From assembly GCF_949628265.1 (NCBI RefSeq), contig NC_088789.1:1054001-1118000 (forward strand): a stretch of DNA of 64,000 nt. The letters run 5' to 3'. Both the position numbers and the translations under genes were made by a program. Position 1 is the first letter of the stretch. Each line of letters starts with the position of its first letter. Positions 28,177-64,000 of the stretch are shown piece after piece. Under the pieces are notes generated by a model. That model was not told the origin of the DNA. It ran no database searches and saw only the letters and a program-made list of their open reading frames with translations. The DNA is from Cloeon dipterum (taxonomy: Eukaryota > Arthropoda > Insecta > Ephemeroptera > Baetidae).

Positions 28177-30432
28177 TCATTTGAAGTTTCCATAGGTGTC
28201 AAAAGAGCACAAGTAGTGTTTGGCAGCTTCATAGAGAAGTCCGAACTGGATCTGAAATTAAAATAACAAGTGAACAAAATAATTTTTGAGTGTAAAACTC
28301 ATTACCTCGGAGGAAACAAAGGCCGGCCTCGACTTCTTCAGGGTTCGCACCGCCAGTCCGACGTCCACCTTTTGCTCCAACTTGATTTTTTCGATCACGA
28401 AACCCATGCCGAGGAAAAGCCCGCTGGCCGTCACTCCATCACTTAAAATACAGTATCAATTAATTTGTCTCTAATTTTTATTTGTTCCTTACTGGCAGAC
28501 AATAGCGATGCACTCTTTTTCACCGGCGATTTTCAAGTTGTCCCACAGATCGATTAGCGGTCCCAAGTTAGGGGGAGACAAATCGCCCGGCATCCACCCG
28601 AATGAGGCGCATTTTACGCTCATTTTTTTGGATTTCGCTTTCTGCAAAGTTAACATTAATTAAGACCAAGTAAAAATCATTCAATTTACTTTTTTGAGTG
28701 TGACATCCGTAGTCTTCACGGAGTGGTATTCTTGAACGTCATCCAAAAACACCTCAATTTCCCCAAAGATAAGCCTGGATTGATTTGTTGGTAGAAATTG
28801 AGCCTAAAATTAAATTAAAATTATGGTTTGGAAAATGGAGATTTTTAGAGCTACTTCTGTAATGTGCGGTTCGTTTAGGACGACGATTTCACTGACGTTG
28901 AACTGGTCGACCATCCTCCAAAAGTCCGCCACCGTGTTTTTCATTGGAACTTGAGTGGCGATAAATTGTTTCGGTTTCTTGTATCCGTCGACGGTGACGG
29001 CGTTGACGAAACTCATTGTCACCACATTCTGGTAAGGGAAGAGACGCACGATGCTGTTTGATGCTGAAGAGAATTTAGATAACACATAAAAATATATAAT
29101 AAGCAGCATATTTAAATACTGGAAATGACGTTGGGGTATCTGCACTTGTCCGTTTCATTTTTAGCCGGTGTTTCCGTTCTCTGAAAATCTCTCTCGCAGA
29201 TTTCCGAGAGTTTTTCATAGCTCTCCTTCAACTTTTCATTGTTTTTTGACTGTAAAGGTGATTTATTAATTATATTTGAAGCATAAATTACGGCTTCGCA
29301 CCGTCAATTTATTGTATTCCACAGTAAAATTGGCACAGCTGATCTCAAAATTCGGGTTGGCGACGCACTCCAAGAGCACCAAGTGGGCAAACTCGAATTG
29401 TTTCTGTTAAAAAGTTTTTATTATTTAAATCCTTACAAGAAAATCGTTAAGTTTACCAAATTATCGACTAAATTCGCTCTTTGGGACCGCATCGTGGCGA
29501 AAATATTTTCAACATCAAGACGGCCGTGCGTGCGAATCATTCGGAGACAAGCATCGATCAAAATCACCGTGCCAGTCCTTCCAACTCCAGCACTTTAATT
29601 AAAAAAAAATGTTAATCAGTGTCGTCATACTGATCTGCACGAAAAAACACCTGCAGTGCACCAAAATGGGGTGTGCGTAATTTTTTTCTGCTATTTTCTC
29701 GACGAAAACCGCCATGGACTGCGGATAAAGTGGCACGCCGTGGTCAGGCCACACCGTGTAATGCAAGTGCTGAACCTGGAGAGATATTTTTAAGACCTAC
29801 GCTGGTTATTTTATCCTGAATTGTTACAAGTCTGTTTGAATTGTTGCACGAAACAGAAAGGACCCTGGAGACGTAGTCGGCGTTTACTTCCTTGTCGACG
29901 GTGCGAACAGTGATTCTGCCGTGCGTCACTTCCTGGTTGTTGTCGGGCCAGTATTTCTCACACTTGTTCTATTATTTTTTTTTAATTAAAGAGGAATGAA
30001 AAGATTATGGTAGAAATCTACCTTGCCACCCTCCAGTAGATTTGTCACCATCACAATTAACGGAACTTTCTCCTGCCACACCATTCTCCAGAAGTCGTCA
30101 AGAGTGTTCACTCTCGGTCCTTGCGTTGCGATGTATGCCTTCGGGCGTTCAAATCCCTAGATTTTGTTATTTTTTATAATTATAAATCATCTCCCTGTTA
30201 ATATTACATCGATGTAGTTGGCGTTGATGTAGTCGGAGTTTTCATCTCCAGGCAGAAGCTCCAGTTTCACTCGGGAGGAGTCGTACGCGGCCAAATTACC
30301 GTAACGATTCTTTTTCTTATTTTCCGGTTTGACGCCGTAATCCCAGTACTGAGTCTGGCCGCGAGGATATTTCTGAATCACAGTAAATTATTTAGGAACA
30401 CTTAGTTCAGGTATAAAAACAGTTATTTTACA
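28177..30432 (-). other. Gene 1 cytoplasmic region: active PTP D1 and pseudo-PTP D2
   Basis: Exon blocks on the minus strand: KNRYGN exon near 30,374-30,209; [15 protein letters not shown] exon near 30,158-30,022; [17 protein letters not shown] exon near 29,969-29,837; WPDHG/HC exon near 29,778-29,651; SAGVGRTG exon near 29,594-29,458; [13 protein letters not shown] exon near 29,404-29,303; then D2 in six exons down to 28,177. D1 keeps the pTyr loop, the WPD loop, the [10 protein letters not shown] signature and the Q-loop region. In D2 the signature is IVCHDGVTASG, the WPD loop is [10 protein letters not shown], and the pTyr loop is [15 protein letters not shown] 53-bp intron sits just before [13 protein letters not shown], so the apparent continuous frame there is not the real reading. 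Confidence 0.85.
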
Positions 30433-33400
30433 TCGAATAATTGCTCCATTAGGACGTTGTTAGCCAGGGCCGAGAGCAAATATTGTTCTATTTGTTGCGT
30501 ATTTGACATGATTGGTCTTTCGATACTCGCACTGTCGCCTTGACTTATGGCCGATAGAGGAAATATTTCGGCACTTGACATGTCCGCGTTGGTCGGCGCC
30601 TGATTTCTCCTCCTTTTATAATACACCCCGACTCCGAGAGCAGTGAGCAAGGCCAAAATTAGAAAGATTGTTATAGTTACGCTGGACGCATTGTGCTGTT
30701 GCTCATCATTTCCTATAAATTTTTTATTTGTATAGCGCGTAAGTATAAAGTTAAAGATCGTCTTTGACGAAGTTTCTGAGCACGCCAATCGATTCTTGAG
30801 GGTCGAATCAGGTCAAGTGGATATTTTTTCCTACCAAAATGTGCAGTGCGAAGTGCGAGCTTTTCGACCCTCAATATACGATTGGTGTGCTCGGAAATTT
30901 CGTCAAAGACGATCTTTATAAGACTCACTTGGACAGTTCATGCATGTGTAGTTCTGGTAAAGTGTAAAATCCTTAAAAATCAGCGAAATTTTGTGTTCTC
31001 CGCATTTGCAGTTGTCGACAGATTTTTCAAAATCGATCTTCTCCAGGGCTTCATCCATAATATTTTTATCGTCCATGTAGGTAACAATCAGAGAATCCGG
31101 CGTGCACAGTTCCTCTTTTCCAGCCTCGCTGACGTTTAAGCTGACAGAAAACATTGTGATGTTGACCTCTTGAACATTTAAACTGGATTGATCTGTTCTT
31201 TAGAGAATTAATTAGATGTTCATAGATAATATAGATTAAATTATTCTTTCCAATGGGCCTGCATTTCGTCGTGAAATTCAAAGTGTCTCCAGGGTAAAAA
31301 TTTTCAGGTGAGTGCATCGTTCCATTTTCAAAGAGGGCGAACCTAACGTTGTACTCGGTTTTCGGCTTCAGATTTGGGAGCATGACATACTCTTCCTGTC
31401 CGTTTTGAATATAGCCTTCACTTGCATTAGTCCATTGACTTGTAGACTTCTATAATTTTTTTAAATAAATCGGTTATTGAATTTTTTTATTAAAACTGTA
31501 CCACCTCTTTGTATTGGATCCAGATTTGAAGGACGTTTTCCTCTCCATTTAAACCAGTTGTCAGGTCCAGAGTAATTTCTTCAAAACTAATATTTGTATA
31601 TTGAGGAGTTACCGTTGGTATTTCTGAAAAGCGAACTGCGCCGTCGAAAAATTCGAAAATTTGTTATATTAAATTATACTTTTGAAACAATCGGGGAACG
31701 TGTATCCTTTTGCACAGCCCAATTTACAGCTTCCATTATTCGAAAAGTGTTTTTCCTTCTCGCAGGTTCGATTAGAGATTTCAGAGCAGTTATGACCAAA
31801 TCTCTTTCCAGTGCATTCTAAAAACCATTCATTTTTTTTTATTTTATACATCTAAATTTAATTTTTTAGTTTTATGTTTGAAATAAGAAAGATAATAATG
31901 TTTATTTGTTGGCCCTAAAGCTCCTACCTTCAGTACACTCAGGGTGAAGGTATCCAGTGACGCAACCCTGTAGACATTTTCCGTCTATGTTGGAGTGGTT
32001 TCCATTCAAACAGAATCGGCGAGATGTCTTAGAGCAGTTTTTGCCGAAGGTTTTCCCAGTGCAGGCTGATTATTCCACAGTAAATTAAATTAAATTATTA
32101 ACTGGAATCGATATTCTTATTGGTGCAATGATTTGAAAAAAAAATATTTCTCGAATTAATCATGAATATTTAAAAAGTTGTACATGAATAAGCAAGGTTT
32201 ATTTACGTATTAAACAATCAGGTGAATAGTATCCTAATTTGCAGCCATCAATACAGGTTCCGTTTATCGGCGAAAACTTTTCTTTTAAACAAAACCTTTG
32301 GGAAGTTTGGGAGCAGTTCATGCCATACTGTCGTCCAGCGCATCCTATATTTATAGTAGTGAAACAATAAAAACTTACATGTAAGAATCCCTTTTTTTAA
32401 ATATAAGCCTAACCTTTCAAACATTCAGGTGCGTAGAATCCTATTTCGCAACCTTGTAGGCAGTCTCCGGTAATGTGAGAGAATTTTCCATTTGAACAGA
32501 ATCGATTGTACGTTTCTTTGCAGTTTTTGCCGAACGTTTTGTTAGTGCATTCTAGAGTCATTAAACACAAACATTAATCATAAAATATAAATAATTATTA
32601 AACAAATATCCAAAAGCTAGATACGTGCATTCAAAAAAACATTTAAAAGTGGTATTTTTACATATATATTGGTTCTAGGTTCATTTTCGGTACTTACGTT
32701 TTTCACATTCTGGTGAATAATATCCTGTAGCGCACCCTTTCAAGCAGTTTCCATTTCTCTGATTGATATTGTTCTCAAAGCAGTGTTTGCTAGTAGTATT
32801 GGAACATCCAATTCCGTACCGATTGTCCTTGCAGCCTAAAATTAAGCAGTCGTTTTATTCCAAGCTATTTTTAATTTATACCAACACAATTATTACTCCT
32901 CAATAAAAATGCGAAGGTCGAACAAAACATGATTCTCTAATATTCATTTGGTGGTTTCATCACTTACTTTCGCAGCTAGGTCCTACAAATCCAGCAAAGC
33001 ATGTGCAATCTTTATTCTTTCCTTTACACACTTTGGAACCTCCTTTCAATGATTTGCTCTCACTCAGTTTATAGAGAACTATTAACAAAACAAAATCCTA
33101 CAGCACGCTGCATTCATAAAAATAACAATCTTACGTTCGTCAGGTATCGCTTTTGCATCTCTTGCATTTTTCGCCAATGAATGGCAACTAGTCGGTTTTC
33201 CAACCTTAGGTTTAAAAACCAGTTCCCCTATGTGCAAAGAATGAATTTATCTTAAATATTTTTATCTAATTAATGGAAATGATACCTTCCTTGCAGAATC
33301 TTACTCCTCCAATCACAACCGATTTAACGTGCGCAGTCAAGGTCACTTTCCAATTGTTTTCCAGTTTAATTGTGTCTGATCTGAATCTCGCTGTGGTCCA

Positions 33401-36400
33401 TTCAACAGAATCCTTGCATGCAACCGATTCTTTGTATTTTGATGTCCCTCTTTCGTCTTTCAACTCCAAGGAGAATATTATTGCGTTTCCGTGGGACTTT
33501 TTATCCGATAGATAGACGACATCGACACAAAAAGCGCTGGATGATTCACGCAGTGTTAATTCCATTGAACTAGGTGAATTCAAAGATCGAAGAACATAGT
33601 CTAGAAGAAAATACATTCCATATAAAAATTTTATCATATATATAAATATATATTTAGATGCATACACTCGTGTAGTTTGAAGAGACCATATTTGTTGGTT
33701 CGAAAGGAAACGAAATGTTCGGGTTTGTTCGACTCTCTGCCAGTGAATAAAAAGGGTTAAGAATGCAGTCGATATATATAATAATTAGGAAGTAATTTTC
33801 AAAGTTGAATTAGTTTGGCTTTTATACTTAGGAGTTTGCCACAATTTCCTACCACATACCTTTTGGGCAGGAAATCAATTTTTGCTATGTCATTAATTGT
33901 TAGCTTATCCTCGCAGTCTTTATCGGTAGTATTAAAAGTTATAGCAAGCGTGGCGTGCGCCCATTTCTTCCCACCACTGAGAAGCTCCTGTCCCTTAAAA
34001 ATCGAGCGCATTATTATTATTGTTGTAATAATATATAGCATATATATTCTACCAATTTAGCTTGGTACTCTGTCACAGGGGTCGGATACTGTCCTTTTAG
34101 GATATTCGTGCAGTCTCGTAAAATAGATTTGTGTTGTATATTCCACCCATCGAGAACAGCGATAAATCCTTTATCCAAGTTTGTGTCCTTCGTGAAAAGG
34201 AATTGCGCAGAGTCGGTGGCCAGAATCGAAAAATGAATGCTTAAATTCTGGTTGTTTGTGAAATTAAATTTTTTATTAAATTTGTCCGTTGCAATGAACA
34301 CTGGCAGGTCTGCAATTAAAAATACCATCTTAAAGAAGATAAGAATGAATAAATTTTGTACCATTCCATCGGTAGTCAGTGACCATTGGGAAATCGTAAA
34401 AAGTGTTTGGCATGTTTTCCCATCCTTTCTGACTCCACGACTTGCAGCCACTTTCTACCGCCAAATTGCAATCGTATTGGGAAAGTGGAATCGCATTTCC
34501 GTGCACATCCTCAACTTGCACTCGCACGAAATCTGTGCAAAAGTATGATTAGCGATGTCGTCTGATAGAATCTTCGGAATATCGAAAATAATAATTTATA
34601 TTTATTTTTAGAGCAATCATAAAATAAAAAATATATAAATGCTGAGTGCACATTCCCACTGGCGAAAACCAGCACCCCGTTTCGAGTCTGAATCTCCTTA
34701 ATTTTAAATTAAATATACATGGAATGCCTCTAAATTATCGATATTAAAAATATGGAAACATTTATATATTTTTTTATTTCTTATCTTTCATAACTACATA
34801 CCCGTCATGGTTGTTTGCGTGTTTTGAACAAAAGCAATTGTTGGACCGTCTGAGACGCAAGCCTCCAGTTGATCTCCATGTCTTATTTCAAACAAGTTTC
34901 CGTCCGTGCCGTGGTAGTCTAGAACTGTACAAAAGAGAAATATTGAATATCGCGTTAAAAATTTTCCAGAACACAAGAGAGGATTAAACAGAAACGAACC
35001 TGTCTCACACCTCGGGGGAAGAAATCCTTCAGCGCATCCATTCAAACAGTTTCCGTCAACATGGTTTATTTGTCCGCCTGAGCACTTTTTCGTGGAAACG
35101 TTGGAGCACTTTAAGCCAAAATTGTTGCCTCGGCAGCCTTTGAAATAAAATTAGATATGCAGCTAATTTTTTCCAAAATCTTGAATTACTCTGGTTGCAA
35201 TGAGGCTCCATGAATCCAGCGGCGCATCCTCGTAGACACGTTCCGTCAATGCGATTCAAACTTCCGTTTAGGCAGGCTCGATTGGAAGTTTTGGAGCAGT
35301 TTAGACCGTACTTATTACCAGTGCACTCTATTCAACCATAAAATCGATTCAAAACAATTTAAAATTTGCTACATTTAATTGAATTCGATAGTTGTTCTTC
35401 TCCTATCGGAAGACTCACGCATTTTATAAATTTCTGTACAGTTTAAAGAAATTTACCAGATTATGTAAGGTTCCTACAATATTTTTAACCCCAAAACGAA
35501 TAAAAAAGAGTTATTAAATAGTAAAACAAACCTTTTTCACATTCTGGAGGTTCATATCCGACTGCGCATCCTTGTAAACAGTTTCCGTTGACGTGATTGA
35601 ACGCGTTTTCCAAACAACGCTTTATGGAAGTGAAAGCACAATTTTTTCCAAATTTACTTCCTTGACATTCTGAAATTATTCGGAAAATTGGTAATCTTAT
35701 TTTTCAATTTCTTTAATTTATACTTTCAGTGCAATCAGGACTTGTGTATCCATCAGCGCAGCCTTGGGTGCAACGTCCGTCTATCGGAGAGTATTTTCCA
35801 TCGATACAGACTCGAGTGGAAGTTTCAGAGCAATTTTGTCCGAACCTTTTTTCACTGCACTCTAGTCGATCATGGAATAGTTGCAAATAAATTATAATTT
35901 AATTTTAATTTTATTTCTCAAGTGCTTTTTATTTGCTATATTATTTAAATTCCTTTTAAATTGTCCGATTAGAATCAAAATATTTTTATATAGTCCCTAT
36001 AAATATATTTCCCTCCGAAGAGAATGGATGTTTAAAAGTTTTCCTGTTTATAACCCTCAAGTTCCTTGTGATTTTGGAACTTTGGTATCACTGCCCGTTA
36101 AATTACGAGCACCGGCCAAAGATAGAGCACGGAGGGTGATTGAAACGCGTGTTGCACACTGGCATACAGAAGCTGATCGCTGTAGCCAGTGCGGGTCAAA
36201 GGAATCTAAGGAAAGCTGAAAAACGCGAGATTTCTATGGGATTATATTCAAATATTAGTGAGTTTTTTTTTGCAATATCGCGTGCAATAGAGACGTCGAA
36301 GCCTAATATTTTTACACAGATAATCGAATTTTGCGGGCCTTGCATGCCAAAAATTAAGCCAGATTCAGAATCTTCTTGTCTTTTTCTTGGTCAGAGTCTG

Positions 36401-39400
36401 ACAAAATTCCTGCCACAGAGCCGCAAGGTTGCAAAGAGTTATTTCTGTTAGCGTGCGAACTGATCTCACGTGCGCGCGTTGAAAGTGCTTTTGTACGCGC
36501 GCTGATTTCTGCTTTTCGAGGTAAAATAAATCATATATAAATTTTTTACGATTTTTAACTGTATTTTTAGACAAACTAGGTTTTATGATAGTTGAAAATA
36601 CGCAATTTATTAAATTTATTTTTCGCGCTATGAATGACGCGTTATTTACGAAAAGGCTTGTCTAGAGCTCTGTTGAAAACGAAAGCCGGGCTGAATACAG
36701 CGAGCCCCTGAATTTGAGGAAACGCGTCTTGCTTTTTTCAAGTGATTCTCAGCTCTGGCAGGCGCTTAATTTACCACCGAAAATTCAACAATAATAATAC
36801 TATTTATAATTATTAAGACTCCAAATTTGAGTTTTTTCCTGAAAAAGTAGAAATAACTTTTTCGATTCCCTGAAGAATCACTATTTGACACAATTTAAAA
36901 CTAGATTAAATTAATTCATTCCAAACGCCATAATTACTTTAAGCTTGAAACACAAATTATAAACGTGTTTTGAGTTAAGATGTGTTGAAAACTTAATTAA
37001 ATAAACCAGACAAATTTATTTAAAAAATTAAACAAACCATATGCACACAGCGGGGGTTGATATCCAACTTTGCATCCATTTTCGCAGGTTCCGTCAACGT
37101 GATTGATTTTGTCTTCAACACAATGGTTCAAGGATGTGAAGTTACAATTTTGTCCAAATTTATTGCCCCCGCATTCTATAACAATTTTACGTAGCATATT
37201 CAGTATAAAAATAGTTTAGCTTTTAATTTTTAGCGGCGAACGTTCAGTGCAAAATGACGTATTAGAAAACTTGAAAATTAGCTTTTACGTTGAAAATGTT
37301 TGCAATAATCGCGTGCAGAACAAGTTAAAGCCGCGTGAGGCCACAGAAATTTAATCGATTATCAAACTATTTAAAAAAATAAAAAAACGAGTAAAAATAT
37401 GTACAAAATTGTGGCCAGAAAGTGACTAGGCCACCACGACTTTATTTTTTTTCTCGTGTTGCTTGAGTGCAAAAACGGCATCACGCTCTCCTTGTGTTAC
37501 AATGCATTAGTTCCTGATAATCAACTTGCTCTCTGCAAATTAAATTCTAAAATTTCGAGGCAAAAGAAGTTTTTTATTTTTATTTTGACTGCACTATAGC
37601 TGCAGTAAATTGTGGATGAGTAACATAAACTTACGAGACATGCGTTTACAAAAGCATGGTTGGAAATAGCAAAAAATCCTCATAAATGATAATTTTAAGT
37701 TATTCTTTTGCATCTAACTGTAAATATCATAAAATTCATAAGATGATAACATTATTCTTGGTTTTTAACGAATTATTTTGATTTTCTTAGAATTGTTACA
37801 ATATTCATTTACTTAAATAAAGAGACAAACCCTTTTCACACAACGGGTGTTGATATCCAACTTTGCAACCCTTTTCGCAGGTTCCATCAACGTGATTGAA
37901 TTGGTCTTCAAAACATTTTTTCCCGGATGTGGAAGAACAATTTTGTCCAAAGCTCTCGCCCTCGCATGCTAGATAAATTGTTATTGGAAAAATCAGCAAA
38001 AATTAGTTACTTTTTACGCGATAAGGATATTAAATAACAACGAGTTAAAAAATAATGACAGAGAAATTCTCATATTAGAATCGATTAACACTTAGTTTGA
38101 TATTATTTACCACTAAAATAGGTAAAAAAAAACCTTTTTCGCACTCTGGAGGTTGATATCCCACTTCACAAATGGTCAAGCAATTTCCGCTGACGTGATC
38201 GATTGAGCAATATTTATTGGACTTCTTGGAGCAATTTTTACCATAGGTCTTGTTCTGGCATTCTAGACAAGAAATTTAAATACGTACAAACAAATTATAA
38301 TTTTTCGAATACTTTGCGTGCAATTTGGACTTATATATCCGTCGACGCAACCCTCAGGACAGGTTCCGTCGAATGCAGAATAGTTTTCATTCAAACATAG
38401 TCGCTCTGAAGTTTTAGAACAATTTGTGCCGAACGCCTTTCCAGTGCACTCTGCCCAATCATTTATAAAAATTGAAAATATTTTCTTTCATTGAGGAGTA
38501 GTTTGATTTAGTAAAAAAAAAATGTATACAAAACATTTTCTTGGTGAAGCATACAACAGCATAGATATGTCTTTTTTTCTCTATTATAAATTACATACAA
38601 GAAGAGGTGGGGCAAAAGAGTTATGATAATTATTTTCATACCTGATTCACAAAGTGGGGGTTGATATCCAACAGCACATCCATTCAAACAGTTTCCGTCA
38701 ACGTAATTATATTTGTTATTAGAACAACGTTTTTTGGAAGTTACGGTACAGTCTATTCCATAATTGTATCCCTGGCAAGCTGTTTTGAACAATTGGACTC
38801 ATGATTTTATTTTGCTTTTGCAACAATTTTGTTCTTGTACTACACGAGCAAAAGTTTGAATATATATGTTAAATAGTTCGCTGTTTTTCTCATGCAATAA
38901 CTGTTATTATCATGACTTACAAGTGCAGTTATCCCCTTGATATCCAGCAAAGCATTTACAATCATTTTGACTATAACACAATTTGTATCCTTCACAATTT
39001 CCTCCGAATACCTTGCATTCACCTAGCTGATATAGAACTGTAAATAAAATTGATTGAACAAACTATTTATTAGAAAGTTTGGAATTCTAAATAACATACG
39101 GTCATTGAAATAATTTTGGTCTGGAGTCTGGTTATCAGCTGGTTTCTGCAATTGAAAGCAATTATCCACATATTTCATAGTTGTTTTAGTGACCAAGTTT
39201 CCTGCGTCGAAACAAAATGAGCACAAAGAAATAACTCAAGCACTCTGGAAATTCACCTTCTTTGCAGAATTTCACCCCTCCAATTACAAGTGATTTATCA
39301 TGCGCAGTCAATTTAAGTTGCCAACCTTTTTTTGGTGTGATATCACCTGCTCTAAATTTCTCTGTGATCCACTTCCTGTTATAATCCACTGAGATGACTG

Positions 39401-46100: not shown

Positions 46101-46880
46101 AAAAATTAAATAAAAATCATCGTCATCATACTGATTCTGCATGAAACCTCACCTGCAGTGCACCAAAATGGGGTGTGCGTAATTTTTTTCTGCTATTTTC
46201 TCGACGAAAACCGCCATGGACTGCGGATAAAGTGGCACGCCGTGGTCAGGCCACACCGTGTAATGCAAGTGCTGAACCTGGAGTGAAATTTTTAAGACCT
46301 ACGCTGGTTATTTTATCCTGAATAGTTACGAGTCTATTTGTATTGTTGCACGAAACATAGAGGACCCTGGAGACGTAGTCGGCGTTTACTTCCTTGTCGA
46401 CGGTGCGAACAGTGATTCTGCCGTGCGTCACTTCCTGGTTGTTGTCGGGCCAGAATTTCTCACACTTGTTCTATTATTTTATTAAAAATTAGGGAATGAA
46501 TGAAAAGGGTATGGTAGAAATCTACCTTGCCACCCTCCAGTAGATTTGTCACCATCACAATTAACGGAACTTTCTCCTGCCACACCATTCTCCAGAAGTC
46601 GTCAAGAGTGTTCACTCTCGGTCCTTGCGTTGCGATGTATGCCTTCGGGCGTTCAAATCCCTAGAATTTATTTTGTTAATAATTATAAGTCATCCACCTG
46701 TTAATATTACATCGATGTAATTTGCGTTGATGTAGTCGGAGTTTTCATCTCCAGGCAGAAGCTCCAGTTTCACCCGTGAAGAGTCGTACGCGGCCAAATT
46801 ACCGTATCGATTCTTTTTCTTATTTTCCGGTTTGACGCCGCAAACCCATGATTGAGTTTGGCCGCGAGGGAATTTCTGTA
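43123..46880 (-). other. Gene 2 cytoplasmic region: active PTP D1 and pseudo-PTP D2
   Basis: D1 exons lie near 46,877-46,706 ([15 protein letters not shown]), 46,660-46,525, 46,470-46,336, 46,281-46,153 (WPDHG, ILVHC), 46,100-45,962 ([18 protein letters not shown]) and 45,907-45,806. D2 exons lie near 44,200-43,123, with [17 protein letters not shown] as the altered signature, [12 protein letters not shown] at the WPD position and [16 protein letters not shown] at the pTyr-loop position. A 52-bp intron (GTAACT ... CTCCAG) precedes [13 protein letters not shown], keeping phase 0. Confidence 0.85.
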
Positions 46881-49800
46881 AAAAAAACGTAATATCCGTA
46901 ATTAAATAAATATTTTCATTCACCTCGAATTGCTCCTTTAGGACATTGCTTGCCAGGGACGATAGCAAGTATTTTTCGACATCTTGATCAGATTTTTCGC
47001 TTGATTCGTCATTTTGATCTATGATTGATAGAGGCACCATTTCTGCACTGGCTATTATTTCCACGTGGGAAGAAAATTGGACTCGATTTGGAGAATGAGA
47101 TCTTTTCCTTTTGATAAAATAGACTCCAACTCCGGTAGCAGTGATCACGATCAAAATTATTATTGTTGTCAAAACTGGGATGTATATGTTGTGATAATTC
47201 TCAGCATTTTCTTCACAGATAATGTTTAATTATTATATTAAACGTATGATAGAAAAAAATCGACTCACTTGGACAGTTCTCGCAAGCGTAATTCTGGTAG
47301 AGGATTGCATTCTTAAACGTCAGCTCAATTTTGTTTTCTCCGCATTTGCAGTCGATTATAGACTTTTGAAAATCTATGCCGTCCAACGTTTCATTGAAAA
47401 TACGTCCAAGTTCATCGTGGTAAACCGTCAGCATTTGTGGTGAGCACAGTTCCCCTTTTTGAGCATCATCACTGAAGTTTAAGCTGACTGAATACGTTTT
47501 CATGTTGACATTTTTCACATTTAAAGAAGATTCATCTGCATTTCTAACGATTAATAATTGCGTATTGTAAATTAATTTTTCTTGCCAATCAGTCTGCATT
47601 CCGTGGTAAAATTCAATTCGTCTCCAGGCAAGAAATTTTCTGGGTAGTCCATCGTGTCGTTTTCAAATAGGGCAAGTCTAACGTTGTAATCAGTTTTCGG
47701 CTTCAGACTCGTGACCAAATACTCAGCTTGATCATTGAAAATATAGCCATCACTGGAATTCATCCATTGGTCTTCAGAGTTCTAAAAATAGAATCGGCCA
47801 ATTATATCTGAAGTTTGCAAAATTTTAATCTCGCACCTCTTTGTATTGGATAAAGATGTGACTGATGTTTTCCTTTCCTTCTAAACTAGTCGCAAGGTCT
47901 AGAATGATTCTATCAAAACTGATAGTTTTGTAACTGGGAATTGCTTTTTGGATTTCTAAAAGATGATTCTATAATTGTTATTTAAAAATTAAAATTATTT
48001 TAATGCTCACCTTTTAAACACTCAGGGTATACGTATCCTTGGGCACAACCAAATTGACAGCTTCCATTATTCGAGAAGTGTTTGTCATTCGAACAAGAGC
48101 GATCAGAGATTTCAGAGCAGTTTTTGCCGAATTGCTTGTATGAGCATTCTGTGAATTTATTTTTGATTGACTTGACAATGTATTTAACCAATAATAAGAA
48201 GCTGAACGAGCTTTTTTTTATTTAATTATCAATAAAGCTGTTAATTTAATTAAATTTAAACGATTAGAGTCTAGCCATTTAGTTAAAATCGATTTTTATG
48301 ATATGAATTTTTCCTTTTTGCTCTTACCTTCGAAACATTGAGGCCCAATGAACCCATCGACGCAACCTTCCAGGCAAATTCCGTCTATGTGGGAGTGATT
48401 TCCACTTAAACAGGCGCGTGTGGAAATTTCAGAGCAATTTACGCCGTAATTGTTTCCACTGCACTCTAATTAATAGAAATACATATTACATGTAATTATT
48501 TTTTAGACATTCGAATGATTCAGATTTTGTCTGGAAAAGCAAGGGGTTTAGATAAACAAATGAAACTGATTTTTATTTTGGAAAATTGGTTAAAAAATCT
48601 TAAAATATTAATTTTTTAATATGTATTACTTAATCTAATAAAGACAAACCTTTTTCACAATCCGGGAAAATATATCCTTCTGCGCACCCCTCCAAACAGT
48701 TACCGTCGCTTTGATTGATTTTGTTTCCAAAGCAGTGCTTCAGGGTCGTGTTGACACAATTTATTCCAAATTTCATGCTCTCGCAGGCTATATGCAAAAT
48801 TAAGAAATTCGTCAGCAAGTTTCAAGTTCTCTCACGCAATTTTTAATTGAACTTTGAAATTTACTGTTGTTCTAGCAATTTTATAACCATTGGAAAATAA
48901 CAATTAAAATTACTCTTCTTGAGAAATATGACCCATAATTGTACTGGAATTGCTGGCTAGCTTACGATTTGTACAGTTTTCTCCTTCAAATCCAGCAAAG
49001 CAAGTGCAATTGTCACTCTGATTTTTGCACAGTTTTAATCCGGAACAGTTTTCATTGAAGGATTTGCATTCTATGAGCAAAAGCAAGCCTGAAAATTAAA
49101 TGTGAATCTGGAAAAATTCCGTAAAAATTAAATTAGATGCACTTACGATTCTTGTAAATTCCGTCAATTTCATCTGGCTTAGAAAATTTTGCTTTTCTTG
49201 CAAGTGCATGACAACTCTTAGGTTTTTTTACAATTGGCTCAAAAATCAAGTCTCCTAAAAGAAGGGGATAATATTTTTTTAAAAGAATCTGATTGCATAC
49301 CATCTTTGCAGAATTTGACGCCGCCAATCACAAGCGACTCAACGTGTGCATTCAAGGTGAGTGTCGAACCCTTTTCCAATGAAATATTTCCTGATCTGAA
49401 TCTCGCCGTGGTCCATTCAAACGAATCCTTTGATGCAACCGATTCTTTGTATTTTGATGTCCCTCTTTTATCTTTCAGTTCCAAAGAGAATAATGTTGCG
49501 GTTCCGTGAATTTTTTTATCTGACAAATAAACAACATCGACACAGAAAGCCTTTGACGACGAGTCATTCAGTTTCAATTCCATCGAACTATGAGATTTCA
49601 AAGATTTAAGAGCGTTGTCTGCGAAGGCAAATTAAATTTTCCTTAAAGCTTGTCTCGTGCATTAACTATCTTAAAATACGTACATGTATGTAGTTTGAAA
49701 AACCCCTTATCGTTAGTTCTGTAAGAAACGTAATATTCCTTGCCTTTGGTTTCCTCTGCGCTGCAGGCGAAAAATATGAATATTGAAAAGAAAAACTCAT

Positions 49801-52800
49801 CTTTTTTCGTTACCTTTTACGGAAGTATTGAATCTTTGTCGTATCACCAGGAACGATGGAATTTTTTCCATTGGTAATATTAAATGAAATTTCCAGCGTT
49901 GCGTGTACCCATTTATTTCCGTTGCTGAGAATCGCATTTTCCTGTAAAATTGTTTGCATTTTTATTTATTAACTTTGAATCACGGTCATGTTGAAATCCA
50001 ACCGATATATTTATGCTTGGGCTCGTACAAGTAGGAAAATTTTTCGAATTTTTTATATAGTCAGGTATGTTGGTGCAGTTTCTCAAAACAGAAGAATGTG
50101 AGTCTCTCCATCCATCGAGGACAACGGTATTCCCTTTCTTTAAAGTTGAGTCATCTGTTAAGAGGAATTGTGCCGAGTTCTTTGCCAAAATCGAAAAATG
50201 TTTCCTGAAATTGTGATGATTCGAGAAACTGATTTTATCCTTAAAACTCCCGTTTGTGAAGGCGACTGGCAGGTCTAGAAATTAATTGTAAATTCGGTAA
50301 ATTCAATTAAATAGAAAGCAGAAAATTTGTTACCACTCCATCGGTAATCAGTGACAATTGGGAAGGAGTTTGACTCGTTATCCGTATTGAAAAGCTCAAA
50401 ATCATTCAGTTCCCATGAATTGCAACCATTTTTCCGCAACAAATTGCAGTCGAATTCTGAGATAACAATTGCGTTTCCGTTCAAATCCTTGATATTCACA
50501 CTCGTGGAATCTGCATCAATTAAAAAATTTTAGCTTTTAATGTTTAACTTTCAATGGGAATCTCTCCCAATGGTCGCACTGCCGTGATTTTGTTATATTT
50601 TTACAATAGACAAATTTAAAATAGATAAATATTCACCATAATGCAGTTGTTGTTTTTAAGAAAAATGAAACAATAGAAAATTTCACATAAATCTTGATAA
50701 ATTAAAAAAAAAATCAATTGCTGTAAACAACTCACCTGATTTGTTTTCAATATTATCTGGCACAAACGCTAGCGTCGGTTCATCTGAGACGCACGCCTCC
50801 AAATTCCCTCCACGCCTTATTTCAAACAAGTACTCGTCCGCGCCATGGTAATCCAGAACTTTTTTAAATATCAAAATTTATCTTTAAATTATAACAACAA
50901 ACTACTCGCGAACCTGTTTCACACTGCGGGGGAAGAAATCCTTCTGCGCAACCTAACAGACAGTTTCCATCGACGTGGTTAATGCTGTCGTTTAAGCAAT
51001 TCTTTTTGGAAACGCTGGAACAATTGACGCCGAAATTCTTTCCTTGACACCCTTTATGAAGAGAAGAGACATATTTCTTGACTAATCAGCCATGCATTTA
51101 AATTTTTATCCGAGTGTATAATTTTTTTATAAATTTAATAACTGCATGGACATTATAACAATTCGGAGCTTGTGCTACTTACGATTTGTACAGTTGTCTC
51201 CGTCAAATCCAGCAAAGCAAGTGCAACTATCATCTTTCTGATTTTTACATAGTTGAAGTCCAGTGCAATTTTTATCAAATAAATTGCATTCGCTAAGTGT
51301 TAATAGGCCTGAAATTGAGATTGCCAAATCAGTCCTTGAAAGAAAAAGAATGTTATATTGCTCACGGTTGTTGAATTTTTCGTCAGTTTCCTGTTTCTCA
51401 TTTTTTGCTTTTGTTGCCAGTGATTGACAACTTTTAGGGTTTTTTACAATTGGCTCAAAAATTAAATCACCTAAATTAAGGAGTTATAAAATTGCATATA
51501 TTGTTCACAAAATCTGATAGCATACCTTCATCTTTGCAGAATTTGACGCCGCCAATCACAAGCGACTCAACGTGTGCATTCAAGGTGAGTGTCGAACCCT
51601 TTTCCAATGAAATATTTCCTGATCTGAATCTCGCCGTGGTCCATTGAAACGAATCCTTTGATGCAACCGATTCTTTGTATTTTGATGTCCCTCTTTTATC
51701 TTTCAGTTCCAAAGAGAATAATGTTGCGTTTCCGTGAATTTTTTTATCTGACAGATAGACGACATCGACACAGAAAGCCTTTGACGACGAGTCATTCAGT
51801 TTCAATTCCATCGAACTATGAGATTTCAAAGATCTAAGAGCGTTGTCTGCGAAGACAAATTAAATTTTCCTCAAAGTTTGTCTCGTGCAACTATCTTAAA
51901 ATACATACATGTATGTTTTTTGAAAAACCCCTCATCATTAGTTCTGTAAGATACGTAATATTCCGTGCCTTTGGTTTCATCGCTGCAGGTGAAAAATGTG
52001 ATAAATTTAAAACAAATCTCGTATTTTGTTACCTTGTAGGGAAGTATTGTATATGCGTGGCATCACCAGGAACGATTGAATTATTTTTATTGGTAATATT
52101 AAATGAAATTTCAAGCGTTGCGTGTACCCATTTCTTTCCGTCGCTGAGAATCGCATTATTCTGTAATTTTATTTGCATTTTTATTTTTAACAGCGAATCA
52201 TGTTCGTGTTGAAATCCAACCGATATAGTTATGCTTGGGCTCGTACAAGTAGGAAAATTTTTCGAATTTTTTATATAGTCAGGTATGCCTGTGCAGTGTC
52301 TCAAAACAGAAGAATGTTCGTCTCCCCATCCGTCGAGGACAACAGTATTCCCTTTCTTTAAAGTTGAGTCATCTGTTAAGAGGAATTGTGCCGAGTTCTT
52401 TGCCAAAATCGAAAAATGTTTCCTGAAATTGTGTTGATTCGAAAAACTGAGTTTATCCTTAAAACTCCCGTTCGTGAAGGCGACTGGCAGGTCTAGAAAT
52501 TAATTGAAAATTCAATTATATATAGAAAGCAGAAAATTTGTTACCACTCCATCGGTAATCAGTGACGATTGAGAAAGAGTTTGACCCGTCGAAAAGCTCA
52601 AAATCATTCAGTTTCCATGAATTGCAACCATTTTCTCGCAACAAATTGCAATCGAATTTTGAGAGAGCAATTGCGTTTCCGTTCAAATCCTTGATATTCA
52701 CACTCATGGAATCTGCTTCAATTAAAAACTTTTAATGGACATATGTTCCAAATGGTCGCACTGTCGTGATTTTTGATATTTATGCAATAGACTAAATAAT

Positions 52801-55800
52801 TAAATTGTCACTGTATTCTATGCAGTTGTTATTTTTATTAAAAATGTAACACAAGAAAATTCACATGAATCTTGACAAATTAAAACAATCAATTGCTGTA
52901 AACGACTCACTTGGTTTGTTTGCAATCTTATTTGGCACAAACGCAAGCGTTGTTTCATCTGAGACGCACGCCTTCAAAATCCTCCCACGCCTTATTTCAA
53001 ACAAGTACTCGTCCGTGCCATGGTAATCCAGAACTTTTTTTAATATTACATTTTCTGTTAAAAGTAGGAATATAAACTAGACACGAACCAGTTTCACACT
53101 GCGGGGGAAGAAATCCCTCTTTGCAACCTAACAAACAGTTTCCGTCAACGTGGTTTATTTTGTCATTGATGCACATTTTTGAGGAAACGCTGGAACAATT
53201 GACACCGAAATTCCTGTCCTTGCAGCCTTAGAAATTGCGATATTAACAAATGGCTGTTATATTTATATTTTGAATTAAAATCATTTTGGCAAACTAATTA
53301 TTATTTATTTCTTTAAGGAGTATTATAGCATGCTCTTAAAACTGAAAAATGCATAAAATTTGATGATTTTTTTTTACTTTGCGGGAAGCATAAAAAAATT
53401 GAAATTCATCTCGTCTTAACGTTAATTTGTCAGCATAGCAAAAGATAACCATCACAGTAACTTTACCTTTTGTGCAAGTGCCTTCTCCAGAACGTTGAAA
53501 ACCAGCAAAACATTCACATTCTCTACATTCATTTTTACACAGTTCGAATCCAGAGCAGTTTCCATTGAAAGCTTTACATTCAGTGAACAAGACTACAAGT
53601 TTCAAAATATTAATAAAAATCTGCTTGCGTAAAATTATAATTATTTACTTGAATTAAATTTTTCATTAAGCAATGAAGTTTCTGGTTCTTCGGCTGGTTT
53701 CTCCAGTAAATGGCAACCGTTTGGATTTCTTATCTTGTGCTTAAAAATCAAATCTCCTTTTCCGATATGTTAAGCAGAGCATAATTTAATTTTTGACATT
53801 GAGTTACCTTCTGTGCAGAATTTGACACCGCCAATTACGAGAGACTCCACGTGGGCTGTCAAAATGAGTGTCGAACCATTTCTCAATTTCGTTCTGTTTG
53901 ATCTGAATCTTTGTACGGTCCATGAAGAATTATTTGTAGATGTGATCGATTCATTGAATTCTAAGTTTCCATTAGCGTCTGTTAACTCCAAAGAGAGCAG
54001 TTTTTCTTGATCCTCTAGGCTTCGAGTTGGTAGGTAGACGACATCAACACAAAATGTGCTAGACGACTCATTCAGTTTCAGTTTCATCGAGCTAGACGCA
54101 TTTAAGGAGTGCAAAACGTGGTCTGAGGGAGGAAAATATTCTCGGTACTCATTAGAAGGCATTAACTAATACAAAATCATACATTTATGTTGCTTGAACA
54201 GGCTCTGATTATTCGACCTGAATGATACATAGTAATTCCCGTCTCCATTTTCAGCACTGGAAATTAAAATATAAAAAACAAAATTCTAAAATGGCGAATT
54301 GAAGGTACAATGCGTACCGATTGGGTAAGAAATGAATATTTTTAGTCTCATTTAAAATTAGCAAATCCTTGAATCTTTCATTGGTTGCATTAAATGAAAT
54401 TTGGAGAGTGGCGTGCGCCCATTTCTTGCTAGCGCTGAGAATAGGATTTCCCTGGAAAATTGAACATTATAGCAACACGAGATGTCTCTTCTATTCTGAG
54501 GTCTAACCGATGTGTTTTGGTACATTGCCAAGCAAGTCGGATATCTTCCTGTGAAGTTTGTGCCGTATTTCAAAGCAGATTTATGTTCCCCTCCCCATCC
54601 GTCGATAGCAGCGTGAAATCCCCTATTTAATGACGAATCGTTTGTGAAAAGGAACTGTGCAGAGTCTCTAGCCAAAATTGAAAAGTGCATTTTAAAACTG
54701 TGGTCATTCGTGAAATTTATCATCTCCTTAAGACTTCCGTTTGTGTAGATAACTGGCAGATCTAAAATTTCGGAATTAATTTTTATGCTGTTTGACGATG
54801 AGTATTTTACCATTCCATCGATAGTCCGTGACCTTAGGGTAGGGGTCTGACAAGTTCTCAATGTTCAGTTTCTTTTCCCATCCATTAGTCAGATCCCAAA
54901 ATTCACATCCATTTTCTAGCACCAAATTGCAGTCGTATTTTGAAAGAGGAATTTTGCCTCCTCTCAAATCTTCAACTATCACCTTCGTGAAATCTGTGTG
55001 TTTGAGACGATTTTTTTTTAATAAATTTACACGCCTCAAACAAATTAATAAATTGAAAACGCTGAAAGCAGATTGTATACCGCTCAAAAAGGGGTCTCGC
55101 GGAAAACAGCGGCGACAACCCCCTCCACACTACCCCTCGCCCATACCAGGGCACGAATCAGTAACCAAATTCACGGTGGCTGGCTGAGCCCTGAGACCTC
55201 TTTTTGATTAGTATTCCATCATCCAAGATGACAAACATATTCGTAAATAATTACTTTAATTTTATTTTATTTATAATAATTTTACAGAAATAAAAAGAAA
55301 AATCGCATGACTGGGATATTTTAAAGATTATTCTCTCTAACGGCCCCTTACAGGCCCGCGACCGAAACGCTTCCATCTTCACTGGTAAAAAAAAAATACT
55401 CAAAACGCACAGATCGGTCCAAACCCGGGAAATGAACGCGGGGCAGTGAATTAAGTGTCTGGTAGTCAAAATCACCCTTAGATCCATAGGTGAATTAAGA
55501 AAAAAAATCATTTAATTTTTTTTCTTTTAAAGAAAATACGTATTTTTGCGCAGATTTTTTAAGCATCCAGGACAGGCGGGGGCGGCAATGGTGCCCAACA
55601 AACGCAGAATTTTACACGAGTCCAACCAACATTGGTTTTTCCCAGTGCAACCCGTAGGAGCCGAGTTATTATTATTAAAGTAAAAAACCCTGAAATGTGA
55701 CATTTAAACCTTTGGTTTTCGTCAGGGGGCCGTAATGCTCATATTTTAGTACCAATCGACGCTCCTTGGTGAGGCGCGTCCGCCCGAGTACGGATTTTCT

Positions 55801-57048
55801 AAATTGGACCATTTTTCGAATTTTTATGATTTTTTCGGCTGAATTTTTGAAAATGGCATAATTTTAAATAGATTCCGCCCTTTATTTTTCCAGTCCAGGA
55901 AGGGTCAGAGCGCGTATCGCCCGTGTGTTGGCTTGAAGGGTCCAAGGGGGGCAAGCTGCTTCAATTAATTTATGGCATCAAAACAATGATGCTAATTTAT
56001 TGGAGTTAATTTGTAGTTGGAGAATTTAAATTTTCATTTCCTGACCGTGGTAGCTAATAAACAAATCACCTCGAATTAAAGTAGTTATTATATACTTTAG
56101 TTTGAACATCTCAATGTTTAAATAGATAATTTTTAACTTAATAGGCATCAATCCGTAACCTCGAACCGCGTGAACAGATAAAATTGGAATGTTTTTGACA
56201 TTAATTCATCGCAATTGTAATTTATATTCGCCCACCAGCTGGCCGGCGCAGGTGGAACGGAAACTTCCTTCTGGCAGCGTTTTCCGTGTGTAGCCATAAT
56301 CCGGATGAAAAGTCTGCTGCTTTGAGCCAGTCTACTAATTTTGGGTCACGTGATCACTGGTCAGCCGCCAGTCACATTGACATTCGCAATTTTGCTAAGT
56401 TACTGCTCCGGTCATGCCAGCCGCCGGTCAAACAGTAAAAAAAAACGAAGTGCGCCGGTCAACAAATTTGGACTATCAAACTTCACTTTAAAAATTTTGT
56501 CAACTGGTAAAAATTATCATTCGCCGCTGAGCTTAATATCCAAGACTGAACAATGAGACCTCAAGAAATACCATAGATTATTATAACAAAATTAAAAAAA
56601 TGTGGAAAATTCTCCATGCGCCGCGGCCCTGGTACTTGTCCTTCGGTGACTTTTGACATTTTACATAATTCAATTTGTGCAAATATTTGTCCCGCACTAG
56701 GATTATCTGCTGTATATGATCGACATATGTGAGGAATGGGGGAAATATATTTAAAACTATTTAAAAATAATGGCAAAAAGGATTAACACGGAAAATAATG
56801 TGCAGGTGTTGTGACTTACTTTGGTTGTTTCCAGGCGGATCTTTCGTAAACGCCACTGTTGGCTCATCTGAGACGCAGGCCGCCAATCCCTTTGCATCCC
56901 ATATTTGGAACAAATACCCCTCCGTGCCGTTGAAATCTGATGATTTTGCAAATTTCCTTATAAACTCTCAGCAGTTGCCTCTATAGTTGTATGACCCACC
57001 TTTTGCTAAAAGCAAAACGATCAACGGGACGGCGAAGCGCTCCAACAT
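43123..57048 (-). CDS. Receptor-type protein tyrosine phosphatase with FAMeT-like and EGF modules, gene 2
   Basis: ATG at 57,048 (signal peptide [16 protein letters not shown]), TGA at 43,125-43,123. Order: signal peptide; ACVSDE module (56,940-56,818); FAMeT-like module 1 (55,000-53,650); short EGF (53,594-53,468); one EGF (53,228-53,090); module 2 (53,032-51,365); short EGF; one EGF (51,054-50,916); module 3 (50,862-49,146); short EGF (49,089-48,965); three EGFs (48,790-48,012); FN3-like domains (47,956-47,270); transmembrane exon (47,216-46,924, helix [18 protein letters not shown] then KRKR); active PTP D1; pseudo-PTP D2. It is a tandem paralogue of gene 1 with a different exterior: three FAMeT-like modules and five EGFs against two and fourteen. 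The catalytic exons are nearly identical to gene 1. The intron at 44,195-45,805 holds a repeat insertion absent from gene 1. Confidence 0.82.
44260..45800. mobile_element. Insertion of about 1.5 kb in an intron of gene 2, made of dispersed repeats
   Basis: Gene 1 has a short intron at this place (about 29,251-29,302); gene 2 has about 1.6 kb. The extra DNA contains a segment also found at 55,430-55,800 (ACGCAGAATTTTAC, GTAGCCGAGTTA, CCTTGGTGGGGCACGTCCG) and two ACCCTGATGACCTTTTTCAG-type palindromes near 45,430-45,475 and 45,740-45,780. No transposase or reverse transcriptase frame is evident. It is either one composite non-autonomous element or two nested insertions. Confidence 0.55.
48880..53228 (-). 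repeat. Internal tandem duplication of a 2.2-kb exon block in gene 2
   Basis: Unit 1 (about 53,228-51,055) and unit 2 (about 51,054-48,880) each contain EGF, ACVSDE exon, the FAMeT-like exons, the 105-residue module, linker exon and short EGF, in the same order and spacing. Coding identity is very high: the frames near 51,829-51,530 and 49,601-49,310 differ at only a few residues, and intron sequence is also alike. The duplication is recent and occurred after gene 1 and gene 2 separated. Confidence 0.8.
55430..55800. repeat. Second copy of the dispersed segment found in the gene 2 intron insertion
   Basis: Ordered matches to 44,510-44,770: ACGCAGAATTTTACACGAG, AACCCGTAGGAGCCGAGTTA, TGTGACATTTAAACCTTTGG, CCAATCGACGCTCCTTGGTG and GGCGCGTCCGCCCG. 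Divergence is moderate. It lies in the large second intron of gene 2. Confidence 0.5.
56335..56530. repeat. Dispersed GCCAGCCGCC-type repeat, copy 3
   Basis: AATTTTGGGTCACGTGATC is followed by GTCAGCCGCCAGTCACATTG, TTGCTAAGTTACTGC and then CATGCCAGCCGCCGGTC. It lies in the second intron of phosphatase gene 2. A weaker trace may sit near 57,960-58,100 (TAATTTTGGGCC, GTCAGCTGCACCAGTCGCCG). Confidence 0.45.
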
Positions 57049-61100: not shown

Positions 61101-61109
61101 GTGAAAGTG

Positions 61110-62875: not shown

Positions 62876-64000
62876 TCATTTGAAGTTACCGTAGGTGTCA
62901 AACGAGTTCAAATATTGCTTGGCGGCTTCGTACACGAGCCCAAACTGGATCTGCATAAGGATAAAAAGAAATTAAAATTCCAATATTTAAATAAAAAATA
63001 ATAACCGCACTTCTGAGGAAACAAAGGAAGGTCTCGACTTTCTCAGGGTTCGCACTGCAAGCCCAACATCAACCTTCTGCTCCAGCTTAATTTTCTCGAT
63101 GACGAAGCCCATGGCGAGGAAAAGCCCGCTGGCAGTCACCCCGTCACTAAAAAGCATCAATCATATTTAATTAATTTTTATTAATTTTTCTCTTACTGGC
63201 AGACAATGGTGATGCTATCTTTCTCATGGGCCGTTTTCAAAGTGCCCCAAAGGTCGATGAAGGGTTGCAAGATTGGCGGAGCAGCTTGTTGCGGCATCCA
63301 GCCAAATGAGGCGCACATGACGCGCACTTTTTTGCATTTTCCTTTCTAAAATACCAATTATGAATTGAGTGATAGCGTTAAAAAGATAATTCGTACGGAA
63401 TGAAGCTCGATGTCCAAGGTTCTAATGTTATTATCATCTTCAGCATCAGCCAAGGTAACTTGTATAGCACCGAAAGCGAATCTGCGTTGCTTGGTTGGAA
63501 GAAAATCGCCCTGAAAAAAATCAATGAAAACCGGTACGAGAGTTTGATATTTTAAGAAATACGTCTGAAATGTGCGGCTCGGTGAGCACAACGATTTGCT
63601 TCACGTTGAACTGATCGATCAATCTCCAAAAATCCGCAACAGTGTTTTTCATCGGCACTTGAGTGGCGATAAATTGCTTCGCTCTGTTGTATCCGTCGAC
63701 GATAACGGCGTTGATAAAACTCATGGTCACGACATTCTCGTAAGGGAAAAGTTTTACGATCGCGTTAGACGCTGAGTAAGAGAAATAAATTAACGAATAA
63801 CTATAGAGTTTCTGATGATTGTATCTCACAGGCTATGAAATCCGGATATCTGCATTTGTCCGTTTCGTTTCTGGCAGGTGTTTCCAATCTTTGAAAATCC
63901 TTTTCGCAAATCATCTCAACTTTTGCGAAGCTCTCCTTGAGCTTTTCACTGTTCGACTGTATAAAAGGGGAATTTGGTTTTTTTATGCTTTGTTCAAGAC
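62876..64000 (-). CDS. Receptor-type tyrosine phosphatase, gene 3 (3' part: pseudo-PTP D2)
   Basis: Minus-strand exons from the right edge: EKLKESFAKVEMICEKDFQR near 63,959-63,829; [18 protein letters not shown] near 63,773-63,563; LPTKQRRFAFGAIQVTLAD near 63,510-63,394; [15 protein letters not shown] near 63,345-63,196; [20 protein letters not shown] near 63,150-63,010; and the last exon near 62,953-62,876, ending in FDTYGNFK and TGA. It is collinear with the D2 halves of genes 1 and 2 but more diverged. It also lacks the signature arginine. D1, the membrane segment and the exterior lie beyond 64,000. The distance between genes 2 and 3 (about 5.8 kb) is larger than between 1 and 2 (about 1.3 kb). 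Confidence 0.85.

Follow-up and report, generated by a model that had tools for sequence, protein, structure and literature searches.

A family of receptor tyrosine phosphatases with FAMeT-like and EGF-like exteriors in the mayfly Cloeon dipterum, and a possible pairing of intact with inactive members

The window analysed here is a stretch of 64,000 nucleotides (nt) of the mayfly Cloeon dipterum (assembly GCF_949628265.1, contig NC_088789.1, hereafter C4, positions 1054001-1118000), and the genome searched around it comprises 190 Mb in 10 contigs. Five matches to 7tm_6, a family of insect odorant receptors, accord with an insect source. On its minus strand lie three collinear paralogous genes for receptor protein tyrosine phosphatases (RPTPs; PTP, protein tyrosine phosphatase), here called A, B and C. 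A and B are complete, and C enters the window only with the six exons of its second PTP domain (D2), its remainder (first PTP domain D1, transmembrane segment, FN modules, one head unit and signal peptide) running beyond the right edge to C4:1125009. Gene models were obtained by chaining minus-strand open frames according to splice scores and phase matching, with GT-AG introns only; the script placed 45 of the 46 introns in A and 44 of the 45 in B, the one left over, which is the same junction in both genes (GA-AG in A, GC-AG in B), was placed by hand, and three junctions of A were set by agreement with paralogues. Neither model contains an internal stop, the median intron is 59 nt in A and 56 nt in B, and position 28177 is the final base of the stop codon of A; the uncertain borders are those of exons 4-7 in A and the start of exon 4 in B (the Fa exon of head unit 1, by 9 nt). 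The module names used below (X1, X2, Fa, JR, L, E, M and so on) were coined in this analysis. The features are as follows, all on the minus strand.

28177-41800, minus: gene A, splice model with 47 coding exons and 2355 amino acids (aa), in the order signal peptide, head unit (X1-X2-Fa-Fb-Fc-JR-L-E), nine M modules, second head unit, five M modules, FN1, FN2, transmembrane segment, D1, D2
41752-41800, minus: signal peptide exon of A (15-residue stretch, hydropathy 1.24)
38921-41696, minus: head unit 1 of A (X1 to E)
35000-38779, minus: nine M modules of A (MEGF-like, six Cys), one exon each, phase 1-1
32968-34924, minus: head unit 2 of A
31680-32835, minus: five further M modules of A
31193-31250, minus: FN1b/FN2 intron of A with a GA donor (TTG/GAAAGA)
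30432-30712, minus: transmembrane and juxtamembrane exon of A (hydropathy 2.56)
29302-30372, minus: D1 of A (17-residue motif present; first Gln of the Q-loop replaced by Asp)
28177-29249, minus: D2 of A, a pseudophosphatase domain with the P-loop VCHDGVTASG
43123-57048, minus: gene B, splice model with 46 coding exons and 2384 aa, in the order signal peptide, three head units with five M modules in total, FN1, FN2, transmembrane segment, D1, D2
57000-57048, minus: signal peptide exon of B (splice model)
53089-56936, minus: head unit 1 of B (X1 to M1)
50914-53033, minus: head unit 2 of B with M1
52033-52492, minus: FAMeT-like module (Fa-Fb) of B unit 2 (PF12248, E 0.0067, 16.6 bits, cut-off 24.2)
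51526-51846, minus: JR module of B unit 2 (AlphaFold2 beta-sandwich, mean pLDDT 82)
48650-50858, minus: head unit 3 of B with M1
47536-47585, minus: FN1b/FN2 intron of B with a GC donor (TTG/GCAAGA)
46924-47210, minus: transmembrane and juxtamembrane exon of B (hydropathy 2.31)
45807-46875, minus: D1 of B (catalytic state as in A; 97% aa identity and synonymous divergence dS 0.12 against A)
43123-44198, minus: D2 of B, a pseudophosphatase domain
62879-63953, minus: gene C, six D2 exons, found by tblastn with the exons of A and B

The interior of these genes is readily placed. PF00102 is found in two stretches in each complete gene (1e-114 in B; 3.4e-116 in A, in a first model of 2348 aa) and, together with a signal peptide and a single transmembrane segment (hydropathy given as the mean across 19 residues), these are the parts of a tandem-domain receptor PTP. 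The motifs HCX5R, WPD and KNRY are present in the D1 of A and B in the window and also in that of C, and the cytoplasmic part of B finds its best solved-structure matches in PTPRA (5.3e-118), PTPRS (1e-114) and LAR (1.3e-109). For the exterior, FN3 matches in A and B stay under the cut-off (fn3 E 0.028 and 0.16; FN3_DSCAM E 1.7e-4 and 3.2e-5), and no Pfam EGF family was matched by A or B with E limited to 1, or by a string of seven M modules from A with the limit raised to 10. Calling the modules EGF-like thus rests on cysteine spacing: the E module has six Cys with the EGF-type 1-8 ending in 13 of 16 cases, and the M module has the spacing 8-7-11-3-8 in 42 of 49, which differs from the classic C-x-C form. 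Neither A nor B has a Pfam match to Ig, MAM or carbonic anhydrase with an E of 1 or less, FN3 being weak only, and their exterior fits none of the RPTP classes R2A, R2B, R3 and R5, whose exteriors were taken for comparison partly from a review and partly from general knowledge.

The head modules are more elusive. Within the Fa-Fb-Fc stretch, PF12248 (Methyltransf_FA) matches 5 of 17 units, with a best E of 8.8e-4 and all under the cut-off of 24.2 bits, and the next-best Pfam family reaches at most 2 of 17 units; the single-unit matches in G (E 0.0048, 17.1 bits) and B (E 0.0067, 16.6 bits) have an alignment that begins near the profile start. An hhalign comparison in which 16 units (all but the truncated one of I) were set against two FAMeT sequences of the genome gave a non-significant E of 0.19, with controls at 0.11 (JR), 0.63 (X2) and 0.69 (D1a), the profiles being too shallow to decide. 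AlphaFold2 returned no usable fold for the Fa-Fb stretch (pLDDT 37), profile searches of PDB left the JR and F modules at chance level (best E 0.85 and 1.7, respectively), and a PDB search with a true FAMeT sequence gave no match at E up to 10. Fa-Fb-Fc is thus likely FAMeT-like, by a weak but best family match. The AlphaFold2 model of JR is a seven-strand beta-sandwich (mean pLDDT 82), for which the first Foldseek match in PDB is a GOLD domain (E 7.6e-4); 20 of the 50 matches listed are carbohydrate-binding modules (CBMs) by title (CBM61, 35, 6, 4, 16 and others; E 8e-4 to 5e-3), and the remainder includes viral, toxin and other beta-sandwiches. PF03272 (Mucin_bdg), a module to which Pfam ascribes putative binding of mucin or carbohydrate, matches the whole protein of B at 29.7 bits (cut-off 27), with no single stretch passing, and does not match A; with JR alone, 2 of 11 modules match (best 0.006). 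The X1-X2 modules of nine members gave nothing better than E 0.076 in Pfam, with one member each for two families. Taken together, the modelled JR fold and these profile matches would make the heads candidate sugar-binding modules.

A first-pass annotation of this DNA had proposed three collinear RPTP paralogues on one strand with an exterior unlike the standard classes, and both points stand. Its composite of FAMeT, MEGF, FN3, transmembrane and two PTP parts holds for the order and for the PTP domains, which PF00102 recognises, and its EGF and FN3 calls lack Pfam support above the cut-off; FAMeT is retained as the best family match, at the sub-threshold strength just given. Module numbers do differ between exteriors as it had said, and to this is added that the heads are built of repeated units, two in A and three in B.

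The same arrangement recurs well beyond the window. Fourteen genes were read, namely G1, G2 and A to G in C4:994-1178 kb, H at 605 kb, I at 2.54 Mb, J and K at 29.21-29.23 Mb and L at 30.01 Mb, all on C4, and in 14 of 14 head modules are followed by PTP exons in the same order on one strand. Genes A to F start with a common signal-peptide exon and end with a common D2 exon; a match to the signal-peptide exon is also the first exon in L, and none was detected in G, G1, G2, H, I, J and K. Modules without a match are FN in G, G1 and L, M in G1, and the transmembrane exon in C and I, which do have a hydrophobic stretch (2.17 and 3.19, judged by hydropathy only). Given the PF00102 E values and the module order in 14 genes, the architecture is not a matter of chance, and the constant order argues that exterior and PTP exons form a single gene. 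A has two head units, B three and the other 12 genes one each, and M (29.62 Mb) and P (30.125 Mb), two of the further members introduced below, may likewise have two, judging by the head matches upstream of them. Since the unit and EGF borders of A and B are all in phase 1, units can be gained or lost in frame; units 2 and 3 of B (82% aa identity, dS 0.21) are, on this divergence, a recent internal duplication. In gene G the stretch between M1 and the transmembrane exon (C4:1169680-1170156) appears unrelated in sequence, and in gene F exons D1b and D1c (C4:1156301-1156576) stand 3 nt apart, the intervening intron apparently lost.

In 13 genes, 317 of 334 module junctions have a fair in-frame GT-AG solution, and the 17 without one include six at the site before FN2 (A, B, G2, H, J and K). 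Here the donor is GA in A, E, G2, H, J and K, GC in B and GT in C, D and F (11 genes examined, the donor of I being unclear); a broken splice site peculiar to A was considered and rejected, the GA being found at the same place in other genes. Were the GA and GC donors left unspliced, exterior and PTP exons would belong to separate transcripts and the genes would mainly make soluble heads, and read-through at this donor does meet a stop before the transmembrane exon (the frame of A ends at 31066-31069). We nevertheless hold such a separation to be very improbable, as the same junction is GT in C, D and F, gene E offers an in-frame GT alternative, the module order is preserved across the genes read and GA-AG splicing is known in some animals. 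The intron before FN2, if retained on occasion, would yield a soluble head.

The PTP-exon search of the genome gave 183 matches, and from the matches listed plus short extra stretches at least 20 members with a readable D1 were recognised, all on C4. Only seven of the 20 (A, B, C, E, H, I and J) keep the P-loop Cys and Arg and the Asp of WPD in D1, gene I, the most divergent member, among them with both HCX5R and WPD. The P-loop Cys has become Ser in five (G1 and G2 with TCC, K with TCA, D and G with AGC), Arg has become Lys with Cys kept in one (F), the Lys being found in D and G as well, and WPN replaces WPD in seven (L, M, N, O, P, Q and R); G1 and G2 carry WPE besides their Ser. The first Gln of the Q-loop (QTxxQ, aligned to the PTPRA Gln) is absent from 20 of 20 D1s, with Asp in 16 and Asn in four. 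D2 lacks the P-loop Arg in all 13 genes in which it was read. The PTP parts of all 14 gene models are free of in-frame stops, and 12 of these models extend to the final D2 exon (D2c was undetected in G and I). The loss of catalytic residues in many D1s lies outside the window.

In the D1 tree, the group G1/G2/K, which stands beside the intact J, is separate from the group D/F/G, which stands beside the intact C, so that on this tree Cys was lost at least twice; since F retains Cys within D/F/G, this second group implies two losses, or a regain by conversion. The ratio of non-synonymous to synonymous change (dN/dS) was estimated pairwise by the Nei-Gojobori method with bootstrap intervals, which is blind to selection at few sites. 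For D1 it is 0.27 (0.17-0.45) in G1-K, 0.21 in D-G, 0.18 in D-F and 0.15 in F-G, and 0.13, 0.15 and 0.14 in N-R, N-O and L-Q, with all intervals below 1, and 0.12 in A-B. Values below 1 inside the changed groups indicate that changed D1s are being kept, and on these ratios they are under purifying selection. For six close pairs the pooled head dN/dS lies between 0.59 and 0.98, with 1 inside each of the intervals; individual exons without any synonymous change are Fb of G1-G2 (10 non-synonymous changes) and JR of F-G (8). The heads are, by the same measure, under fast change or relaxed constraint. Positive selection on the differing exteriors was tested and found unsupported, the head intervals including 1.

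The relation between outside and inside varies from pair to pair. A and B have a D1 dS of 0.12 and D1 introns that are 83-98% identical, with a dS of 1.05-1.76 between head units, and their shared interior is by this contrast homogenised. Elsewhere it is the exterior that is shared. Between G2, which has Ser for Cys, and the intact H, identity is 92.8% along 3379 nt, introns included, up to FN2, and then drops to 68-79% (head dS 0.07, D1 dS 2.0). Between the intact E and F, which has Lys for Arg, it is 85.3% along 2588 nt and 66.6% thereafter (head dS 0.10, D1 dS 1.1); and between E and G, in which Ser replaces Cys and Lys replaces Arg, it is 94.2% along 3276 nt and then 68-78%, save for a 59-nt piece at 85% (head dS 0.08, D1 dS 1.1). 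The G2/H and E/F-G mosaics mean that on at least two occasions recombination between intact and dead members has brought exterior and interior into a new combination. Thus the near-identical exterior on a different interior that marks paired receptors is found in G2-H, E-F and E-G, and more weakly in J-K and C-D, in which an intact and a dead gene are full-length duplicates (head dS 0.07 and 0.14). The first-pass annotation had taken the family for a shared interior beneath an exterior under diversifying change; homogenisation of the A/B interior and head intervals that include 1 speak against this, and the pattern is reversed in G2/H and E/F-G.

Head modules are also found apart from the RPTP genes, on contigs C1, C2 and C3 and elsewhere on C4, and no PTP match lay near these PTP-less modules among the matches listed. 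Read by eye, with no splice model, the gene at C3:8181001-8185000 has a head, a Ser/Thr-rich mucin-like stalk, a transmembrane segment and a short tail, and that at C2:1853001-1859000 has, likewise by eye, a head, one M-like module, FN3-like repeats and a hydrophobic C-terminus. A genome search with the M module put 67 of 68 matches on C4 and missed the M-like module of this C2 gene at 1.855 Mb, so the spread of the module is not bounded by that count. At 29.63, 29.65, 29.82 and 29.98 Mb of C4, head modules resembling the PTP-less type of C2 stand among the RPTP genes of a second cluster.

We suggest, with a probability of about 0.45, that this expanded insect RPTP family serves for paired recognition, with pseudophosphatases that bind substrate working against the active phosphatases. 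The architecture, catalytic residues, constraint and mosaics from which this starts are grounded in sequence, and ligand type, co-expression, opposed function and any immune role are the steps that we infer. The heads would bind a glycan or glycoprotein, and a member with an intact D1 would, upon binding, dephosphorylate substrates held near or presented to its inactive D2. Members whose Cys, Arg or Asp is replaced by Ser, Lys or Asn, respectively, would bind the same ligand and the same substrates, and would hold or shield the substrate without normal phosphate release, counteracting the active partner as decoys or substrate traps. The two kinds would be kept alike on the outside by gene conversion or recombination. 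A wider proposal, to which we lend a more tentative credence, is that one lectin-like recognition surface is shared among active interiors, substrate-trapping interiors and short-tailed or anchored proteins without PTP, which would send opposite signals or none.

Several observations weigh against the paired-receptor proposal. The first Q-loop Gln has a catalytic role, and with it missing even the D1s here called intact may be slow or dead. Partners are not universal, A and B being both intact and unlike on the outside, and J/K and C/D could be explained by duplication and later decay of D1 with no pairing at all. FN modules are without match in G and G1, and G, having no recognisable FN exon between M1 and the transmembrane segment, may be broken there; the E/F and G2/H cases are independent of gene G. 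The deep nodes of the D1 tree are supported at 26-56 only and conversion can distort a tree, and among the changed pairs G1-G2 has diverged too little for a test (0.09-1.85) and the interval of M-P is wide, at 0.30 (0.14-0.76). As for the ligand, the JR fold score is modest, only four matches reaching E 0.001 and the CBMs having a TM-score to the query of about 0.47-0.61, and fold similarity to CBMs, itself based on a model, is no proof of sugar binding.

These observations leave room for two further explanations of the whole family. Adhesion or guidance RPTPs may simply be expanding by birth and death, the changed D1s being duplicates on the way to pseudogenes and the alike exteriors resulting from recent duplication or random conversion. 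A remnant in which signal-peptide and X1 exons stand directly beside D2 exons (C4:602.8-604.3 kb, an internal deletion) is what such turnover would leave behind, homogenisation falls on either side of the gene, on the interior in A/B, and the FN modules without match in G, G1 and L, with G possibly broken, point the same way. We consider this account unlikely, if by no means negligible, for duplicates in decay would hardly leave PTP models of 14 genes free of in-frame stops, 12 of them complete to the last D2 exon, or a D1 dN/dS well under 1 within the changed groups; moreover, there were two or more losses of Cys, and other groups have changes at two further catalytic residues, with the rest of the domain kept. 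Alternatively, the proteins would be non-catalytic adhesion receptors whose PTP domains are mostly scaffolds or redox switches, the family serving mainly for binding to cells or matrix. Such a role is improbable in our view because seven members, including the most divergent one, retain HCX5R and WPD and because D1 is so constrained between A and B (dN/dS 0.12), although a core residue is missing from 13 of the 20 D1s and the Q-loop Gln from every one of them, and although head modules occur on C1, C2, C3 and C4 apart from RPTP genes, the two such genes read by eye ending without PTP. The adhesive proteins of sea stars (PMC9382459) also speak for such a role: the part of that report available to us describes adhesive secretions combining FAMeT with EGF-like domains, e.g., Sfp7, and describes no PTP in them, whereas in the mayfly such modules stand on receptor PTPs.

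The paired-receptor proposal draws further support, by analogy, from the competition proposed for PTPRU and from gene conversion in Siglecs. PTPRU, a class R2B receptor, has an inactive D1 and D2, and recruits substrates of its active paralogues, with which competition has been proposed (PMC7320164); in this it parallels the dead members described here. It differs in having an R2B exterior (MAM, Ig and FN3) and in keeping the catalytic Cys with WPE and an altered pTyr loop, whereas five genes of C. dipterum have Ser at the Cys position, and its dead members occur together with intact paralogues whose exterior is almost identical. The binding domains of Siglec-11 and Siglec-16 are kept matched by gene conversion (PMC5701461), and vertebrate paired receptors (Siglec-11/16, CEACAM, CD300A/C), as their abstracts describe them, carry near-identical binding regions on opposed cytoplasmic parts, an arrangement that the present pairs would share. 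The vertebrate pairs signal via opposed inhibitory and activating tails, while the contrast here is that of an intact and a dead phosphatase with putatively opposed functions. Compared with RPTPs of class R2A (LAR) and R4 (PTPRA/PTPRE), the family is alike in signal peptide, ectodomain, transmembrane segment, D1 and D2; it differs in having FAMeT-like and CBM-like heads with EGF-like modules in place of Ig/FN3 or a disordered glycosylated stalk, in lacking the first Q-loop Gln and in having many changed D1s. Some molluscs have RPTPs with MEGF-like exteriors. The main text of a review of RPTP exteriors contains no word beginning with EGF, and among the literature titles and abstract openings listed, a scope outside which most subscription papers and preprints fall, there were no RPTPs with FAMeT-like and EGF modules and no such insect RPTP family.

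The left part of the window holds other frames on the minus strand. An open frame at 15-452 contains CIDE-N (E 4.8e-16), an ankyrin-repeat frame lies at 21585-22568 (Ank_2, E 3e-34), and two EGF_2-type frames at 18473-19468 (E 6.7e-7, and 4.4e-4 just under the cut-off) belong to a neighbouring gene. The frames at 14355-17330 resemble by eye what we take to be a core-1 galactosyltransferase, although three of them, searched one by one, matched nothing in Pfam with E limited to 0.01. Scans of the window with Rfam and for tRNA gave no match.

To our knowledge, paired activating and inhibitory receptors are known solely from vertebrate immunity, and the examples found in the literature, as far as the sources consulted extend, are vertebrate. 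The present family suggests an insect counterpart, which would use intact and dead phosphatases for the two sides. Replacement of Cys by Ser and of Asp by Asn resembles the dead and trapping mutants made in the laboratory, and here receptor PTPs with Ser for Cys (five genes) or Asn for Asp (seven genes) occur naturally and, on the ratios given above, are kept by selection, some of them beside intact partners. Because dead members stand beside intact partners, the function of a pseudophosphatase receptor becomes testable in matched pairs. If the heads do bind glycans, the family would be a candidate recognition repertoire in an insect.

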